Below are positions 18,830 to 26,211 of a DNA stretch of 26,428 nucleotides, piece after piece. A program made the position numbers and the translations under genes. The stretch comes from a virus. How positions within the stretch are numbered: the stretch's first letter is position 1; each line of letters begins with the position of its first letter. The stretch covers positions 1 through 26,428 of IMG/VR virus record IMGVR_UViG_3300023503_000053; one strand, 5' to 3'. The notes under the pieces were generated by a model. That model had not been told where the DNA came from and did no database searches. It saw nothing but the letters and a program-made list of their open reading frames with translations.

Positions 18830-19006
18830 TTAAACCTCCATTTTCCAGAAATATTCACACTTGCCATTTTTGAATGGCACAATAACAAACTGGCTCAAAA
18901 ACTCATTTGTTCTACTACTAATATACCACTCAAAAGTAATATATCTCTTACATTTTTTCTTCAATAGGCAATCTGTGCCTTTACAAACAGTGATACTCTT
19001 AATCAT
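18830..19006 (-). CDS. Small Cys-rich phage protein, unknown
   Basis: The start is put at ATG 19006 (GGGAG eight bases upstream); 58 residues. It overlaps the dUTPase stop by eight bases. Cysteines in C-K-G-T-D-C-L-L-K-K-K-C-K-R-Y (about 8-22) and a last C near residue 51 could form a small metal site. The C-x4-C-x5-C-x-R-Y pattern resembles small conserved phage early proteins of unknown function. It is translationally coupled to dUTPase. Confidence 0.65.
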   Translation of the reverse strand: MIKSITVCKGTDCLLKKKCKRYITFEWYISSRTNEFLSQFVIVPFKNGKCEYFWKMEV

Positions 19007-19448
19007 TTCCTGAACTCCCAAATCCTCTTGCTCCTCTTTCTGTAGGATAATGTTTTTCAAAGTCTATATAAATATCTTTATTAACTACAATCTCTACTTC
19101 ATAGTCTTTACTAAAAACCATCTGGCAAATTCTGTCAGTTGTAAACAATTTAACATCAAAATCTCCGTGATTAATCAAAATTACTTCAACCTCACCCCGA
19201 TAGTCTGGGTCAATCAGCCCTGGTGAGTTTAAAACCGTAACTCCAAATTTACGAGCAAGACCACTACGAGGTCTAATATCTGCATGACAGTCTGAAGGCA
19301 TTGCCAGTTTAAACCCTAAAGGAATAGAAAGCCATTTATGTGCTGGAATTATAATATTCTTTCGGGTCTTACAATCCCAGCCTGATGAATCATATTTTTT
19401 CTCTGGCACAAGATGCCAGTTAAAAGAGCACAAGATAATTTTATTCAT
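18999..19448 (-). CDS. dut: dUTPase (deoxyuridine 5'-triphosphate nucleotidohydrolase)
   Basis: 149 residues from ATG 19448, which has its own strong site (GGGAGG, five bases away). dUTPase converts dUTP to dUMP and pyrophosphate, keeping uracil out of phage DNA and feeding thymidylate synthesis. All five trimeric dUTPase motifs are visible: I D-S-S-G-W-D-C (residue about 18), II R-P-R-S-G-L-A (about 61-67), III G-L-I-D-P-D-Y-R-G-E-V with the catalytic Asp (about 76-86), IV D-R-I-C-Q-M-V (about 105), and V R-G-A-R-G-F-G-S-S-G at the C-terminus. Length matches the family. The frame also runs upstream to 19523 and encodes a copy of the methyltransferase N-terminus (M-N-W-K-D-K-F-P-K-E-N-R). A 174-residue form with this tail is possible but seems to be a recombination by-product. 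Confidence 0.92.
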   Translation of the reverse strand: MNKIILCSFNWHLVPEKKYDSSGWDCKTRKNIIIPAHKWLSIPLGFKLAMPSDCHADIRPRSGLARKFGVTVLNSPGLIDPDYRGEVEVILINHGDFDVKLFTTDRICQMVFSKDYEVEIVVNKDIYIDFEKHYPTERGARGFGSSGND

Positions 19449-19523
19449 AAAAACCTCCCTATTCTCTTTTGGAAATTTATCCTTCCAATTCATATTCTCT
19501 TTATTTAGTTTTGGTTTTGTCAT
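19449..19523 (-). pseudogene. Orphan N-terminal methyltransferase cassette fused ahead of dUTPase
   Basis: Twenty-five codons in the dUTPase frame. The first 22 equal the N-terminus of the methyltransferase at 19520-21022 (M-T-K-P-K-L-N-K-E-N-M-N-W-K-D). It has an excellent ribosome-binding site (AAGGAGG, TAAA spacer, ATG) and overlaps the methyltransferase stop by four bases. It is likely a leftover of a lost methyltransferase. It could still be translated as a tail on dUTPase or as a coupling leader. Confidence 0.7.
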
Positions 19524-19528
19524 TTTAC
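19465..19528. repeat. 64-bp direct repeat, copy 1 (methyltransferase N-end)
   Basis: Identical to 20964-21027 over 64 bases. It encodes the methyltransferase N-terminal residues plus the start codon; homology resumes for a few bases (TCCTTT) beyond one mismatch. The other copy belongs to the intact gene at 19520-21022. It probably arose by duplication or recombination in a methyltransferase array. Confidence 0.9.
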
Positions 19529-21022
19529 CTCCTTTAATTCTTTAATTGTGTCTTTAATTCTTTGTTTAGCTATTTCACAATACTTTTCATGGAGTTCTAT
19601 TAAAATCCACTGCCTACCAACATTTTTACATGCAATCGCTGTCGTACCGCTCCCTCCGAATGGATCTAACACAATTCCCCCTGCTGGTGTTTTAGTCAGT
19701 GTGCATAGATATTCCATAAGTTTGAGAGATTTTACAGTTGGATGCGTGTTGCCTACACCACGCTCTTTCTTGGAAGCCTTAGCACAGTAGAAGAAGCGGG
19801 CATTATTTTCCCCTTTTCCTGTTAAGTCAACCTTTATCTGCTTAAAATAACGGGAAGCTCCGCCTTTGTCGCCAAAGCCCACCCTTCCCTTCTCTCTATT
19901 TTTTGAAGTATCAGTACCAAAAATACTAACTGCATTGCCATTGCCACCACCAGAACTTAATCCCAATTCCCCACTCTGCTCATCTAACATATAGCAAGGG
20001 CATTCTGGGTTGGTATGGATTCGATAACCACCTTTATATGTTCTTCCAGCGGGCTTTCCTTCTGATTTTCTCCATATACCACCTTTTACTTCTTCTGGTT
20101 CTTTAATTTCTTCTGTCCCTTCTATCACCTCATCACAAATACATTCAAGGATTATGTTGGCTGGGAAGCGACCTTGTGGATGTTGTTCTCCTTTATTTTT
20201 ACCATCCAAATTACTTCCATAACCAACTTTACCAGACCCTATTGATAGTTTTTCATTTGTCCCTATCCTCCCCCCGTCAATATTCAACCCTGCTACTCCC
20301 CACTTCAAAGCATTTTGAGCATAGCCTCCTTCTGGACTTTTAATGGCTAAAATAATCGGTTCAAATGCTGGCTTTAATGCTGTTCCGTATCCTTCCCAAT
20401 CATTTTTTACTATATTGTTGCCAACTTCTATTTGGTTTTTTTGGAATATCTTGTCTGCAATATTCACATTTTTTAATTTCTTGTGCCGTAAATACATATC
20501 CTCCTTATATTCATTATACATATTTTCTAATTGTTTTCTTATATTCTTTGCTATATTTAAAGATTTGGGAAATCCGCTACCATAAATCCAGAGGATAGTA
20601 TCTTTAATCTCAAACCCAGCCAATCTTAAACTCATACTCATCAAATCTTGAGTCCTTGTCCCAGCAAACACTAAAGCAGTTCCACCAGGTTTCAACACCC
20701 TATACACTTCCCTCCACAAAGCAGGTGGTGGAACGAAAGCATCCCAATCTTTCCCCATAAATCCTGATCCACCTGGTATATAATCATCCTCACCCGACAG
20801 CCACTTCATCATCGTTTCCCGTATTTTCTTTTCTGATATGTTCGATAGCCCGTATGGTGGGTCTGTTATCACGGTATCCACACTATTCTCTTCCATCTTT
20901 TCCAACACTTCTATGGAGTTTCCGTTGTATAGTATTCCCCCATCTGCCTCATAATATCTGTTTTCTTTTGGAAATTTATCCTTCCAATTCATATTCTCTT
21001 TATTTAGTTTTGGTTTTGTCAT
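19520..21022 (-). CDS. Beta-class DNA amino-methyltransferase (N6-A or N4-C), 500 aa
   Basis: Start ATG overlaps the previous stop (ATGA) with AAAGGA upstream; M11 is an alternative start that matches the paralogues. Motif order is IV first (T-D-P-P-Y-G-L at about 54-60), then a long target recognition region of about 350 residues with Gly-rich and N-P-E-C-P-C segments, then motif X-like H-P-T-V-K-S-L-K-L-M-E-Y and motif I L-D-P-F-G-G-S-G-T-T near residue 455. That order and D-P-P-Y define the beta class. Target base and sequence cannot be read from it. It is much larger than the two paralogues at 23083 and 23876 because of the central region. The last residues (C-E-I-A-K-Q-R-I-K) share their DNA with the orphan end at 21909-22016. 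No nuclease lies nearby, so it is an orphan methyltransferase, probably for anti-restriction. Confidence 0.9.
   Translation of the reverse strand: MTKPKLNKENMNWKDKFPKENRYYEADGGILYNGNSIEVLEKMEENSVDTVITDPPYGLSNISEKKIRETMMKWLSGEDDYIPGGSGFMGKDWDAFVPPPALWREVYRVLKPGGTALVFAGTRTQDLMSMSLRLAGFEIKDTILWIYGSGFPKSLNIAKNIRKQLENMYNEYKEDMYLRHKKLKNVNIADKIFQKNQIEVGNNIVKNDWEGYGTALKPAFEPIILAIKSPEGGYAQNALKWGVAGLNIDGGRIGTNEKLSIGSGKVGYGSNLDGKNKGEQHPQGRFPANIILECICDEVIEGTEEIKEPEEVKGGIWRKSEGKPAGRTYKGGYRIHTNPECPCYMLDEQSGELGLSSGGGNGNAVSIFGTDTSKNREKGRVGFGDKGGASRYFKQIKVDLTGKGENNARFFYCAKASKKERGVGNTHPTVKSLKLMEYLCTLTKTPAGGIVLDPFGGSGTTAIACKNVGRQWILIELHEKYCEIAKQRIKDTIKELKEVK
19537..19588. repeat. 52-bp direct repeat, copy 1 (methyltransferase C-end)
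   Basis: Identical to 21911-21962 for 52 bases; beyond one mismatch a further CCTCCTTT matches. It encodes E-K-Y-C-E-I-A-K-Q-R-I-K-D-T-I-K-E on the - strand. Confidence 0.9.
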
Positions 21023-21027
21023 TTTAC
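20964..21027. repeat. 64-bp direct repeat, copy 2 (methyltransferase N-end)
   Basis: Partner of 19465-19528, at the intact start of the 500-aa methyltransferase. Confidence 0.9.
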
Positions 21028-21897
21028 ATCCTTTCCATGCCTTGCCACAAACTCTAACGCCTCTCTAATTGTTTTCTCACTTACCCTTGCTCCGTTAGAC
21101 AACTCAATTAGCCCCTCTTCCCCTTCACCATCGGGCAAGCCAGTCTCTTTCAAAATCCCATAGGCAACTTCACCCCCGATCAGCTTACCACAGGTGATAG
21201 TTTTTTCTTTCTCATCAATTTCACGCCAGTTACAAACCCCAGCGAAAATTCTCAATCCTGCTTTAAGAGTGGTCCCACAAGTAATGGAGAAATGAGAGAT
21301 AATCCCTCCACCAGTCTCAATCCACTCACCAGCTTTAATCCCTCCACCAGCTTTAATCCACTCGTCAGCTTTAATCCCTCCACCTGCCTCAATCCATCCA
21401 CCAGTTTTAATCCACTCACCAGCTTCAATCCCTCCGCCAGTTTCAATCCAATCACCAACCTCAATCCTTCCAATAGCTTTAATCCACTCGCCAGCTTCAA
21501 TCCCTCCACCAGTCTCAATCCACTCACCAGCTTTAATCCACTCGTCAGCTTTAATCCCTCCACCCGCCTCAATCCACTCACCAGCCTCAATCCCCCCACC
21601 AGCTTTAATCCATCCACCAGTTTTAATCCACTCACCAGCTTCAATCCCTCCACCAACCTCAATCCAATCACCAGTTTTAATCCACTCGCCAGCTTTAATC
21701 CACTCACCAGCTTTAATCCCTCCATCAGCTTTAATCCACTCGCCAGCTTTAATTAACCCACTGGCTTCAATACTACCCTCTACTACTAACCCCTTCTCCA
21801 AATCAATCTCCAAATCCCCATTGGTTATTAAATTCCCCTCCCAGTAATACCTCCATCCCATATCTTTTAGCCCTTTTGTTTTGGATGTAATTTTCAT
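21019..21897 (-). CDS. 25-hexad repeat protein, beta-solenoid-like, unknown
   Basis: Start put at ATG 21897 because AAAGGAGG lies directly upstream; ATG 21912 is also in frame. 292 residues. After a 45-residue head (G-W-R-Y-Y-W-E-G-N) comes a run of 25 hexapeptides from about residue 51 to 200, alternating types G-E-W-I-K-A and G-G-G-I-E-A. Ile is at position 4 of nearly every unit, and Trp or Gly at position 3. This periodicity suits a left-handed hexapeptide-type or bactofilin-like beta-solenoid. The C-terminal 90 residues are different: two cysteines, then a charged helix. DNA repeats are 18 bp. The gene sits between a methyltransferase C-end and an N-end, like inserted cargo, and overlaps the methyltransferase start by four bases. 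Function unknown. Confidence 0.8.
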   Translation of the reverse strand: MKITSKTKGLKDMGWRYYWEGNLITNGDLEIDLEKGLVVEGSIEASGLIKAGEWIKADGGIKAGEWIKAGEWIKTGDWIEVGGGIEAGEWIKTGGWIKAGGGIEAGEWIEAGGGIKADEWIKAGEWIETGGGIEAGEWIKAIGRIEVGDWIETGGGIEAGEWIKTGGWIEAGGGIKADEWIKAGGGIKAGEWIETGGGIISHFSITCGTTLKAGLRIFAGVCNWREIDEKEKTITCGKLIGGEVAYGILKETGLPDGEGEEGLIELSNGARVSEKTIREALEFVARHGKDVK

Positions 21898-21908
21898 TTT
21901 TCCTCCTT

Positions 21909-22016
21909 TCATTCTTTAATTGTGTCTTTAATTCTTTGTTTAGCTATTTCACAATACTTTTCTTCTAACTCAATACCTATCCATCTACGATTTAATTTTT
22001 CACAGGCCACAAGTGT
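21909..22016 (-). pseudogene. Orphan C-terminal remnant of a beta-class methyltransferase
   Basis: Directly after the C5-methyltransferase stop, 35 codons remain of a methyltransferase end: T-L-V-A-C-E-K-L-N-R-R-W-I-G-I-E-L, then E-K-Y-C-E-I-A-K-Q-R-I-K, and a TGA. This is the segment that follows motif I in the neighbouring methyltransferases, but motif I and everything before it are gone. No start codon or separate ribosome-binding site is obvious. The downstream solenoid gene starts a few bases after its stop. Confidence 0.85.
21911..21962. repeat. 52-bp direct repeat, copy 2 (methyltransferase C-end)
   Basis: Partner of 19537-19588, inside the orphan C-terminal remnant. Confidence 0.9.
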
Positions 22017-23086
22017 TATTCTACTTTTATAAAAGAAAATATCCAAGCTATTACATCAACAGTCCAAGTGTTTCCTACCATTTTATATCTTTGAGTATCT
22101 GATATCTGTTTTACTTTACCATCTTCAAATAAACCATATTGAGTATAATTATCAGGTAAAGTTTGTAATCTCTCACATTCAAGAGGTGTAAGTCTTCTTA
22201 CCCTAATAATTCTATCTACCAAAATTTTTGGCTGTCTATACCCTCCTTGCATTGTAGTTAAAGTGGGAGATTTACCAAAAATTGAATAAACCCTTTTAAT
22301 TATATCATATCCTTTTAAATCTAAATACCCAATACAAAAACACAAATTTGTAGCTCCAGAATTTGATACTCCTTGGCCTGCTGCAGTTAAACATTTAGCT
22401 TTTTGTTCTGGAGTTCTTAAATTAGCTAATGCTTTTTTTAAAGATGTTCTCCCTTTAATATTTAATAACCTATTCTCTATATAATACTTCTTATCAACCT
22501 CATCTTCTAAAATATCTTTCAATAATATTCCATTATCTTCAGGCAACCCTTCAACAGGTATATTTGTCCAATATAATCTTCTTCTGTTTTGTGCTGATAC
22601 TAAAGCTGAATTTATTTCAATAGGCTCTACTTCCAAAGCATTTGTAACTACATCTCTCCACTTTTTAGCCACTCTGACATTCTCAAGTAAAAACCACTTA
22701 GGTTTAATCTCTTTCAACAACCTTGCAAATTCCCAAAAGAGATAAGATTGTCCTTCAAATTCAAATCCTTGTTCTTTTAACTCTAAATATTGTTCAAGTG
22801 AAGTAACTTCTATTTTTTCTTTTGTTACCATACCTTGTCTCTTACCTGCAAAACTGAAGTTCTGACAAGGACTCCCTCCCATTATTAAATCAACTTCTTT
22901 AAAATCTTCTCCTTTCAAATATCTAATATCACCAACAAATATTGTATCTGGATAATTATATCTTGCTACTGCAATAGCATATTTATCAACTTCACTTGCA
23001 TAATACTTTTCAAATTTAATTTCTACTCTATCTAATGCTAATCTACCACAAGAGATACCATCAAAAAGACTTAATACATTTCTCAT
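22016..23086 (-). CDS. C5-cytosine DNA methyltransferase (Dcm/DNMT3-like phage type)
   Basis: Start put at ATG 23086 (AGGAGG eight bases upstream); GTG 23095 is three codons earlier. About 356 residues. Motif I L-S-L-F-D-G-I-S-C-G-R-L-A-L (about 4-17), motif IV G-G-S-P-C-Q-N-F-S-F-A-G with the catalytic Cys (about 73), motif VI L-L-E-N-V-R, motif VIII Q-N-R-R-R-L-Y-W, motif IX L-T-P-L-E-C-E-R-L-Q-T-L-P, motif X M-V-G-N-T-W. All C5-methyltransferase motifs are present, so it should be active. It transfers a methyl group from S-adenosylmethionine to C5 of cytosine. The F-D-G-I-S-C-G start is the phage DNMT3-like subtype. Overlap with the upstream methyltransferase stop is four bases (ATGA). The gene is visibly more AT-rich than the dUTPase side. 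Confidence 0.93.
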   Translation of the reverse strand: MRNVLSLFDGISCGRLALDRVEIKFEKYYASEVDKYAIAVARYNYPDTIFVGDIRYLKGEDFKEVDLIMGGSPCQNFSFAGKRQGMVTKEKIEVTSLEQYLELKEQGFEFEGQSYLFWEFARLLKEIKPKWFLLENVRVAKKWRDVVTNALEVEPIEINSALVSAQNRRRLYWTNIPVEGLPEDNGILLKDILEDEVDKKYYIENRLLNIKGRTSLKKALANLRTPEQKAKCLTAAGQGVSNSGATNLCFCIGYLDLKGYDIIKRVYSIFGKSPTLTTMQGGYRQPKILVDRIIRVRRLTPLECERLQTLPDNYTQYGLFEDGKVKQISDTQRYKMVGNTWTVDVIAWIFSFIKVE

Positions 23087-23859
23087 ATCAGCCACCTCCT
23101 CTCTTCAAATAGTTTTCTTTGTCTAACAATTTCTTCTATTCTTTTCTTAGCTATTTCACAATATTTCTCTTCTATTTCAATACCGATCCATCTTCTATTA
23201 AGTTTTTCACTTGCAATAGCTACAGCACCTACACCAATAAAAGGATCTAATACTATTTCGTTTTCTCGAGTAGAGTTGTCTATTAAAATTTCCATTAACT
23301 CTACAGGTTTTTCTGTATCATGGGTATTTTTACCATTTACTTTAGTCTTTTTATTAGGAATTGATAAAATATCAGATGTCCCACAATTATTTATTCTTTT
23401 AGCTTTACCTTTTCTACCAAATAAGATATACTCAAACTGTGACATATAAAACATACTAGTAATCTTGTTACCCTTATCCCATATAAGACTTCTTATGAAA
23501 TTTACATTTTTTATATTATAAATAACACTTAAATATTCATACAAATTTTTATGGTTTGTCATAACATAAAAATGAGTGTGTGTTTTTAATTTACTTATAA
23601 CAAAAGGTAACCATTCTTTAACATCAACATCGTTATGTTTAAAAACTTTACCTTTCATATTTATATCTTTTCTAAACATTCCTCCTGCTCCTCCAGCACT
23701 ACCCCTACTTGTTGTTCTGTAAGGAGGGTCTGTGACTACTAAATCTATACTTTCACTCGGAAATTGCTTTAAAATCTCTAAACAATCTTGATTATATAAA
23801 ATTCCATTCTCAGTTTCAAAATAATGATTTTCTTTTGGGAATTTATCTTTCCAGCTCAT
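23083..23859 (-). CDS. Beta-class DNA amino-methyltransferase, 258 aa
   Basis: Start follows AAGGAGGTGATAAA; 258 residues. N-end M-S-W-K-D-K-F-P-K-E-N-H-Y-F-E, motif IV V-T-D-P-P-Y-R-T-T (about 42-50), a Gly-rich loop after it, target region to about 195, then motif I I-V-L-D-P-F-I-G-V-G-A-V-A-I-A (about 205-219). Motif I differs from the usual F-G-G-S-G-T-T but keeps F-x-G-x-G. The last 35 residues (E-K-L-N-R-R-W-I-G-I-E) match the other methyltransferases here. Small for the class, but motifs are in order. Specificity unknown. DNA is AT-rich compared with the 500-aa paralogue. Confidence 0.9.
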   Translation of the reverse strand: MSWKDKFPKENHYFETENGILYNQDCLEILKQFPSESIDLVVTDPPYRTTSRGSAGGAGGMFRKDINMKGKVFKHNDVDVKEWLPFVISKLKTHTHFYVMTNHKNLYEYLSVIYNIKNVNFIRSLIWDKGNKITSMFYMSQFEYILFGRKGKAKRINNCGTSDILSIPNKKTKVNGKNTHDTEKPVELMEILIDNSTRENEIVLDPFIGVGAVAIASEKLNRRWIGIEIEEKYCEIAKKRIEEIVRQRKLFEERRWLI

Positions 23860-23875
23860 TTTATCACCTCCTTAT

Positions 23876-24664
23876 TTAAAATAAACCTCTTTGTTTTATA
23901 ATTTCTTCTATTCTTTTCTTTGCTATTTCACAATATCCCTCATTGATTTCTATTCCTATCCATCTTCTATTGAGTTTTTCACAAGCTACAAGAGTTGTTC
24001 CACTACCACAAGTAAAATCAAGCACTAAATCACCTTCGTTGGTATATGTTTTGATAAGATACTCTAACAAAGCTAATGGTTTTTGAGTAGGATGTTTATC
24101 TACATTATGCTCATTATTTATTTTTAATATAGTTGTAGGATAATTAGTCTTAGTTTGTATATGAACCTCTTTATCTGGAACTTTACCATACACACGACTC
24201 TTTTTTCGGCCTTCTGTATTCTTTTTTATGAAATTACAATCTACCAATCCTTGTGGATTATAAGTAGGTTGTTTTTTATAAAAAACAGATATTATTTCAT
24301 GTTTAACCATAGGTCTTTTCTTTGCTTGTAAATGTCCAGTTTTTCTTGATTTTTCCCAAATCCAATCATACTTAAACTCTTTAAAATTGCTAACTCTCAA
24401 TAAACTACTAAAAGGCTCGCTTCCAAATAAAACAATAGGCGTCCTATCTTTCCTAATTCTCTTTAACTCTCTCCACATATCATCAAATGGAATAACAATA
24501 TCCCATTTGCAAGCAGTTGTTCCATAAGGAGGGTCAGTAATAATAGCGTCAAATATCTGCTGTGGAAACTTACTCATTGTTTCAATGGCTTCAGCATTAT
24601 ATAATATTCCATTCTCAGTTTCAAAATATCTATTTTCTTTAGGAAATTGGTCTTTCCAATTCAT
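23876..24664 (-). CDS. Beta-class DNA amino-methyltransferase, 262 aa (phage type, DPPYGTTACKWD)
   Basis: 262 residues; ATG in ATGA overlap with the upstream gene, preceded by GAGGTG. Motif IV reads T-D-P-P-Y-G-T-T-A-C-K-W-D (about 42-54), the form often seen in phage N6-adenine methyltransferases; then F-D-D-M-W-R-E-L-K-R-I and L-F-G-S-E-P-F, the motif X-like H-P-T-Q-K-P-L-A-L-L-E-Y, and motif I V-L-D-F-T-C-G-S-G-T-T (about 213-223). Adenine as the target is likely by resemblance; the site is unknown. It shares its N-end and C-end with the paralogues in this block. Confidence 0.92.
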   Translation of the reverse strand: MNWKDQFPKENRYFETENGILYNAEAIETMSKFPQQIFDAIITDPPYGTTACKWDIVIPFDDMWRELKRIRKDRTPIVLFGSEPFSSLLRVSNFKEFKYDWIWEKSRKTGHLQAKKRPMVKHEIISVFYKKQPTYNPQGLVDCNFIKKNTEGRKKSRVYGKVPDKEVHIQTKTNYPTTILKINNEHNVDKHPTQKPLALLEYLIKTYTNEGDLVLDFTCGSGTTLVACEKLNRRWIGIEINEGYCEIAKKRIEEIIKQRGLF

Positions 24665-25723: not shown

Positions 25724-25845
25724 CTTCCATCTCCAACAGTTCAGGATTTTCATAAATGTTGCCAATAACTTCCAAATCTTGCCATTTAATCCAATTATTC
25801 TTGCCATTTATGCCAATAACTTCCAAATCTTGCCATTTAATCCAA
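25724..25845 (-). pseudogene. Displaced original C-terminus of the YopX-family gene
   Basis: Between the present YopX stop and the next gene, the last repeat copy encodes W-Q-D-L-E-V-I-G-N-I-Y-E-N-P-E-L-L-E-M and a stop overlapping ATG 25723. This is the expected end of a YopX-family protein (I-G-N-I-Y-E-N-P-E-L-L). It is now out of frame with the rest of the gene because of the tandem duplication. Confidence 0.8.
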
Positions 25846-25920
25846 TTATTCTTGCCATTTAATCCAATTATTTTCATAGATGTTGCCAATAACTTCCAAA
25901 TCTTGCCATTTAATCCAATT
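25777..25920. repeat. Imperfect tandem repeat in the YopX gene end (units 51, 22, 51 bp)
   Basis: The 20-base core TCTTGCCATTTAATCCAATT occurs at 25777, 25828, 25850 and 25901, spaced 51, 22 and 51 bases. On the - strand it encodes N-W-I-K-W-Q-D/E. The 22-base step is not a multiple of three, so the array shifts frame and yields an early stop for the gene read through it. Confidence 0.9.
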
Positions 25921-26211
25921 AACTGTCCAACCTTTTACAGTGAAATATGGGGGATTAAATATTACCACTCCTTTTGTTGGTTCTGATACACTGAAGGCTG
26001 TTTTTGGATATTGAACAATATCCCCTTCATATATTTCCTTGCCATTTTTATCTTTCAATCCAGTATATTCCATTAAAATTTGATTTTTCTGGATATTTTC
26101 TATCATAAAGTTTAATCTTTCGTTATCATTGTAATGGTCATAATAAGGCTCTGGATTATAATCCATCTCTTTCTTTTCTTTATTCCATGCTCTAAATTTA
26201 ATCTCTCTCAT
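25846..26211 (-). CDS. YopX-family phage protein with altered C-terminus
   Basis: Start put at ATG 26211 (AAGGAG upstream); 121 residues. N-terminal R-E-I-K-F-R-A-W-N-K-E and the central L-M-E-Y-T-G-L-K-D-K-N-G-K-E-I-Y-E-G-D-I-V are the signature of the YopX family, found in many phages and Gram-positive and Gram-negative prophages; the function is not known. The core domain is complete up to L-E-V-I-G-N-I-Y-E-N, but then a second N-W-I-K-W-Q-E is added and a stop follows. So the end is a duplication-derived tail in place of P-E-L-L-E. The gene overlaps the upstream gene's end by 14 bases. Confidence 0.85.
   Translation of the reverse strand: MREIKFRAWNKEKKEMDYNPEPYYDHYNDNERLNFMIENIQKNQILMEYTGLKDKNGKEIYEGDIVQYPKTAFSVSEPTKGVVIFNPPYFTVKGWTVNWIKWQDLEVIGNIYENNWIKWQE

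Follow-up and report, generated by a model that had tools for sequence, protein, structure and literature searches.

In all likelihood, recombination in conserved ends swaps the bodies of a group of viral DNA methyltransferase genes, and the virus fragment analysed here holds a tandem array built on such exchangeable bodies. The fragment (the window) is the whole of the 26,428-bp IMG/VR record IMGVR_UViG_3300023503_000053, a metagenomic assembly in which the + strand carries a tail module and the – strand a block of genes. The central gene of the array encodes M500, a chimeric methyltransferase, and direct repeats of its N-end and its C-end stand outside it as orphans. These repeats and the chimerism are present in the window itself; exchanged bodies, empty sites and shared derived mutations are present in related viruses. 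The affected region of the – strand contains, from upstream to downstream:

21910–22037, – strand: orphan C-end of a lost methyltransferase X, carrying C-end repeat copy 1 (21911–21962); its last 52 bp equal the M500 C-end
21019–21897, – strand: gene for a beta-solenoid protein of 292 aa, between C-end and N-end, with a sequence like a ribosome-binding site and ATG at both edges
20964–21027, – strand: N-end repeat copy 1, comprising the ribosome-binding site tail and M500 codons 1–20 (MTKPKLNKENMNWKDKFPKE); 64-bp exact match
19520–21022, – strand: M500, chimeric beta-class N4/N6 DNA methyltransferase of 500 aa (PF01555, E 2e-32), composed of N-end, GFMGKDWD-type body and C-end
19537–19588, – strand: C-end repeat copy 2, the final M500 codons (EKYCEIAKQRIKDTIKE); 52-bp exact match
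19465–19528, – strand: N-end repeat copy 2, the orphan N-end in frame before the dUTPase; 64-bp exact match
19459–19523, – strand: orphan N-end, directly before the dUTPase's own ribosome-binding site
18999–19448, – strand: dUTPase core (PF00692, E 4e-23); a longer open reading frame (ORF), starting at 19523, takes in the N-end fragment as well

Direct-repeat analysis and base-by-base alignment gave exact identity over 64 bp for the N-end pair (20964–21027 and 19465–19528) and over 52 bp for the C-end pair (21911–21962 and 19537–19588), at the positions given in an initial annotation of this DNA. With mismatches allowed, the two repeats lengthen to 77 bp (96%) and 93 bp (86%), and weaker similarity continues through the ribosome-binding site and ATG (AAAGGAGG.AAAATGA). 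The probability that codon choice alone would produce the identical stretches is ca. 3e-5 for the C-end and ca. 4e-5 for the N-end, so both repeats are copies rather than the result of convergence. The – strand order is C5-cytosine methyltransferase, orphan C-end (22003–21910), solenoid gene, M500, orphan N-end, dUTPase, in agreement with the C-end/solenoid/N-end-body-C-end/N-end/dUTPase order described initially. Downstream of M500 only 8 bases separate the C-end and N-end repeats (19588/19465), and the M500 stop codon shares bases with the next ATG (ATGA). The initial annotation took these two C-end/N-end arrangements for a single junction in an empty and an occupied state; both arrangements do occur, but a duplication of the junction, with a chimeric methyltransferase between the copies, describes them better than a single site in two states.

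Two further methyltransferases, A and B, lie upstream and share the N-end motif of M500, and a methyltransferase of another class lies next to them:

23876–24664, – strand: methyltransferase A, N-end motif MNWKDQFPKENRYFETENGILY (PF01555, E 7e-36), 67% identical to the L188 methyltransferase
23083–23859, – strand: methyltransferase B, N-end motif MSWKDKFPKENHYFETENGILY (PF01555, E 2e-34)
22016–23095, – strand: C5-cytosine DNA methyltransferase (PF00145, E 3e-39), between B and the orphan C-end

M500, A and B match phrog_67 (E 6e-62 to 3e-73) and fit the beta-class (N4/N6) profile, in which motif IV (DPPY) precedes motif I (GSGT); all three are thus predicted beta-class N4/N6 DNA methyltransferases. 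By its sequence, M500 is a chimera, with a body from a widespread phage family and an N-end from another set. Eighty relatives of M500 were fetched, and the WKDKFPKEN N-end was found in none of the 73 (GFMGKDWD-type body) that had a readable N-terminus.

The N-end (WKDKFPKENRYFETENGILY) is carried by 28 methyltransferases in ca. 25 contigs of viruses and metagenome-assembled genomes (MAGs), on many unrelated bodies. Two of the contigs are from MAGs, one of them recorded as a Thermodesulfobacteriota MAG of Guaymas origin. Strict DNA patterns for the N-end recovered only 3 contigs; an alignment-based search recovered 29 loci. The 28 enzymes average 73% identity in the N-end vs 19% in the body, and the two are uncorrelated (r = 0.03 over 378 pairs). 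N-end and C-end similarity do correlate (Spearman 0.44, Mantel p 0.004), and the first body segment is correlated neither with the N-end (−0.12) nor with C-end similarity. Pairwise identities and Mantel tests were used here because body clusters by BLAST E-value were uninformative – shared motifs join all beta-class enzymes. A WGLR-type body has the N-end in L193, L195 and L196 and lacks it in L204, and the phage relatives of A and of the L182 and L176 enzymes mostly align only downstream of the N-end.

Tandem methyltransferase arrays also occur in L087, L170, L189, L192 and L196. The L170 contig (L170:1-3334, JAMOQH010000042.1) contains four methyltransferase genes in tandem and nothing else; where one gene overlaps its successor, its 3' end also supplies the downstream gene with a Shine-Dalgarno sequence. 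N-end methyltransferases in L172, L180 and L185 are broken by a frameshift, an internal deletion and stops, which suggests rapid gain and decay.

The orphan C-end upstream of the solenoid gene is itself mixed. Its last 52 bp are those of M500, and the identity begins abruptly: the part upstream of it is of the A/B type (TLVACEKLNRRWIGIEL, and carrying LVACEKLNRRWIGIEL), unlike M500 (IACKNVGRQWILIEL). The orphan is 86% identical over 109 bp to the L175 methyltransferase, an alignment that reaches into motif I, and at TTTTATA it is fused to the 3' end of the C5-methyltransferase gene. The mixed composition indicates that ends were exchanged between two different methyltransferases.

The clearest views of exchange come from orthologous loci in related viruses, which stem from other metagenomes. 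At the locus between RNR-alpha and RNR-beta, G004 (L172/L235) and G017 (L188/L236) have flanks that are 85–90% identical and an N-end that is 91% identical over 98 bp; the bodies that follow do not align, and similarity resumes at the C-end and continues through RNR-beta at 88%. The same locus has no methyltransferase in G007 (L237), in L234 and in the more distant L238, where the site is ACTACTCTACT-AAGGAGGT-TAGAAAAGATGG. In G004, AAGGAGGT closes the same left flank ahead of the methyltransferase gene, whose 3' end gives AAGGAGGT-TAGGAAAGATGG. The 8-bp Shine-Dalgarno sequence AAGGAGGT therefore borders the inserted gene on both edges and is present in a single copy at the empty site. An extra gene of 195 aa lies just upstream of the N-end in G017 and is missing in G004; it parallels the solenoid gene of the window. 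At L235:751-1744 (G004), RNR-alpha has an in-frame intein-like insertion of ca. 1 kb (CVAPDTRILTKEYGYIEI...) that is missing at that place in G007 and G017.

A second, SbcC-like locus has three bodies. Identity between L176 and L182 is 90.7% up to and including the N-end; the bodies that follow are unrelated, and the C-end is common to both. L180 (G011) has a third body there, of the L172 type, internally deleted. The L172-type body thus occurs at two loci, RNR in G004 and SbcC-like in G011 (94% identity over 32 aa). Breakpoints vary in position inside the ends.

Ends are also shared within a single genome. In G017 the L174 and L181 methyltransferases, ca. 80 kb apart and with unrelated bodies, have an exact 91-bp C-end in common; the 16-bp tandem duplication in it is identical in both genes and causes a frameshift. 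The same damaging mutation on different bodies points to transfer of the end, and is hard to explain otherwise. In the N-end, the G017 enzymes L181 and L188 are identical over 39 bp, also on unrelated bodies. The initial annotation had proposed that conserved ends let phages swap, gain or lose methyltransferases; the different bodies at one locus and the empty loci of related viruses uphold this. Locus alignment in related viruses had been set beforehand as the check – it found other bodies between the same ends, and not one fixed arrangement throughout the relatives.

A mechanism can be proposed in which the 5' end (ca. 20–45 codons, to motif IV) and the 3' end (motif I/II to the stop, ca. 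20–40 codons) have kept sufficient DNA similarity to serve as homology arms. The body, with its target-recognition region, would be replaced by homologous or homeologous recombination inside these arms. Whole genes could be gained or removed, and orphan ends left behind, when arms or Shine-Dalgarno sequences undergo unequal exchange or the DNA between them is deleted; tandem arrays would supply many recombination arms. The window would owe to such events its chimeric M500, both orphan ends, and the gene inserted at a ribosome-binding site. The benefit may be a changing methylation repertoire against host restriction. We infer this benefit, the recombination machinery and the order of events in the window. 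RecA-family recombinases are encoded in 6 of the 12 related records, including three that show exchange; RecT and Erf were found in none of the 12. A wider proposal, which is possible though somewhat doubtful, is that viruses of many lineages, some from a Guaymas MAG record, share one standard pair of methyltransferase ends at many loci, and that any captured body could then enter any locus, with Shine-Dalgarno sequences joining whole genes. If true, the shared end pair would allow rapid, selectable turnover of viral methylation patterns.

Several points weigh against exchange between conserved ends as the explanation. Every record is a metagenomic assembly. No close relative of the window was found in the collections searched (a search of IMG/VR with tail-tip protein J), and for this reason exchange at the window's exact locus can only be presumed, and strong statements are confined to related viruses. 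The N-end set was gathered by means of the N-end pattern, so that divergent N-ends are under-sampled and the correlation argument is weakened; the locus comparisons are unaffected by this bias. AAGGAGGT is the usual Shine-Dalgarno sequence, and its presence at both edges of a gene is partly expected. Some of the conservation could be due to purifying selection on a functional N-end, which would not account for the synonymous identity or the shared frameshifts. Finally, the leader repeated in the orphan N-end (MTKPKLNKE) is that of M500 and is absent in A and B, and for this copy duplication and decay are possible if the window is considered alone.

The last point leads to the alternative that fares best, though it is unlikely: tandem duplication of M500 inside a single genome, after which the flanking copies decayed to orphan ends, with no exchange. 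The five tandem arrays named above, like the copied leader, are what this alternative would lead one to expect. It leaves unexplained the mixed orphan C-end, M500-like in the last 52 bp only, with an A/B-type upstream part and 86% identity to L175. Nor does it account for an N-end on M500 that is foreign to the family of its body, or for the exchange visible at orthologous loci elsewhere.

It is highly improbable that the ends are alike through protein constraint, with purifying selection holding them while the bodies evolve faster. The N-end peptide is indeed conserved over many contigs, and the C-end holds general S-adenosylmethionine-binding motifs. This explanation is already contradicted: relatives of the bodies exist without the N-end, synonymous positions do not differ between the repeat copies, one locus holds bodies of different subfamilies between flanks that are 85–95% identical, and a frameshifting duplication on unrelated bodies cannot arise from selection on protein. 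There is similarly little chance that different genomes were mis-joined at the 52- and 64-bp repeats during assembly. The repeats are shorter than a typical read and the data are metagenomic, but the genes are intact and translationally overlapping (ATGA). Like structures also occur independently in other contigs, some of them recovered independently in assemblies of two metagenomes (L173/L174, L181/L182 and L234/L237, pairs that are 99.3–99.9% identical). Least probable of all is movement of the methyltransferases and the solenoid gene by a dedicated mobile element or a site-specific recombinase (an invertase, integrase or homing endonuclease), for which the clean borders of the inserts and the intein-like inserts nearby in related viruses might speak, since no recombinase was named among the window genes scanned, repeat analysis found no inverted repeats of at least 24 bp in the window, and the varying breakpoints show no fixed long target, the only constant border being the 8-bp Shine-Dalgarno sequence. 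Shufflons and invertible methyltransferase loci differ from the window in the same respect, having inverted repeats and a linked recombinase.

Exchange between conserved ends resembles several known systems. Orphan methyltransferases are common in phages, where they give protection from host restriction, and turnover of this repertoire is rarely visible. Here the intermediates can be seen – chimeras and orphan ends, sites with and without a gene, and loci with two or three alternative bodies – and viruses can apparently alter their DNA-methylation repertoire by recombination, probably dodging host restriction enzymes. The loci form a test set for whether restriction pressure drives swapping. 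The nearest parallel is domain movement (DOMO) in Helicobacter pylori, where the specificity part of a gene can change place, be lost or be duplicated through recombination at the repeats on either side of it, also between loci (Furuta et al. 2011, PMC3077401). Its x-(TRD1)-y-x-(TRD2)-y layout, in which the TRDs are target-recognition domains, is matched by the C-end/N-end junctions duplicated around the M500 body and by the tandem arrays in L170 and L087, and the occurrence of one domain at different loci by the L172-type body at the RNR and SbcC-like loci. The bacterial TRDs lie inside S subunits or Type IIG genes; in the viruses nearly whole bodies are exchanged (motif IV to about motif I), the genes stand alone, and orphan ends are left between them. 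Repeat-mediated shuffling of specificity, known from restriction genes of bacteria, would extend to entire methyltransferases of viruses.

In temperate phages, homology-driven mosaicism by relaxed recombinases is well established (De Paepe et al. 2014, PMC3945230; a lambda Red study, PMC2327257). There, as here (N-end 91% over 98 bp, C-end 88%), exchange at diverged homologies marks the borders. The present case differs in that the borders lie inside one gene family and the ends recur at several loci and genomes, and in that the related records have RecA-family genes and no Rad52-like RecT or Erf. Orphan methylases of actinophages have within-gene recombination, reticulate histories and movable inserts, including inteins (PMC9957025); in those it is the inteins and inserted elements that move between methylases, and in the present case the ends are kept and the body between them is replaced. 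In lactococcal 936 phages, orphan methyltransferases are present or absent at a fixed locus, as in the related viruses here, and protection from restriction has been demonstrated (PMC4759559, citing Murphy 2014); conserved exchangeable ends are not mentioned in the passages of that source that were consulted. No prior description of end-swapping in phage methyltransferases was found in the open-access papers searched, where absence is no proof of novelty.

The orphan N-end lies in frame with the dUTPase. Since the dUTPase gene has a ribosome-binding site and a start codon of its own (AGGGAGGtttttATG; ATG at 19448), the N-end fragment is an in-frame leader or a remnant. Most dUTPase relatives align only from about residue 27–48 of the longer ORF, and the leader therefore looks local.

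The 292-aa protein between the C-end and the N-end consists of six-residue repeats (IKAGEW), and an AlphaFold2 model has a mean pLDDT of 80.9, with ca. 96–98 in the solenoid part. Its gene starts with AAAGGAGGAAAAATGA and is followed by AAAGGATGTAAAATGA, vs AAAGGAGGTAAAATGA at the uninterrupted junction. To judge from these borders, it looks like a Shine-Dalgarno-to-Shine-Dalgarno gene insertion, the same kind of boundary as in the gain and loss at the RNR locus. The initial annotation had regarded the protein as cargo; a role as dedicated cargo was rejected – its relatives in other viruses (L200–L202) are in unrelated neighbourhoods, outside methyltransferase ends. They have the N-terminal cap and the repeats in common, and the C-terminal part differs.

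The C5-methyltransferase of the window is 85% and 57–69% identical to the two halves of an orthologue in G017 (L188:6787-7410), which is split by an intein-like insertion of ca. 200 aa exactly at the catalytic Pro-Cys motif. The insertion reads GSPC-FAEGTKVLTKEGYKN...NNVIVHN-CQNFS; the window copy, at 85% identity just upstream, is without it.

Two other repeats are found in the window, away from the methyltransferases. Three 52-bp direct repeats (25746–25921; 85–98% identity, spacing 51 and 73) sit between or across the starts and ends of two short – strand ORFs. Near the tail genes, a protein of 414 aa (692–1936) has repeats of ca. 19 residues (VDALLQK-type).

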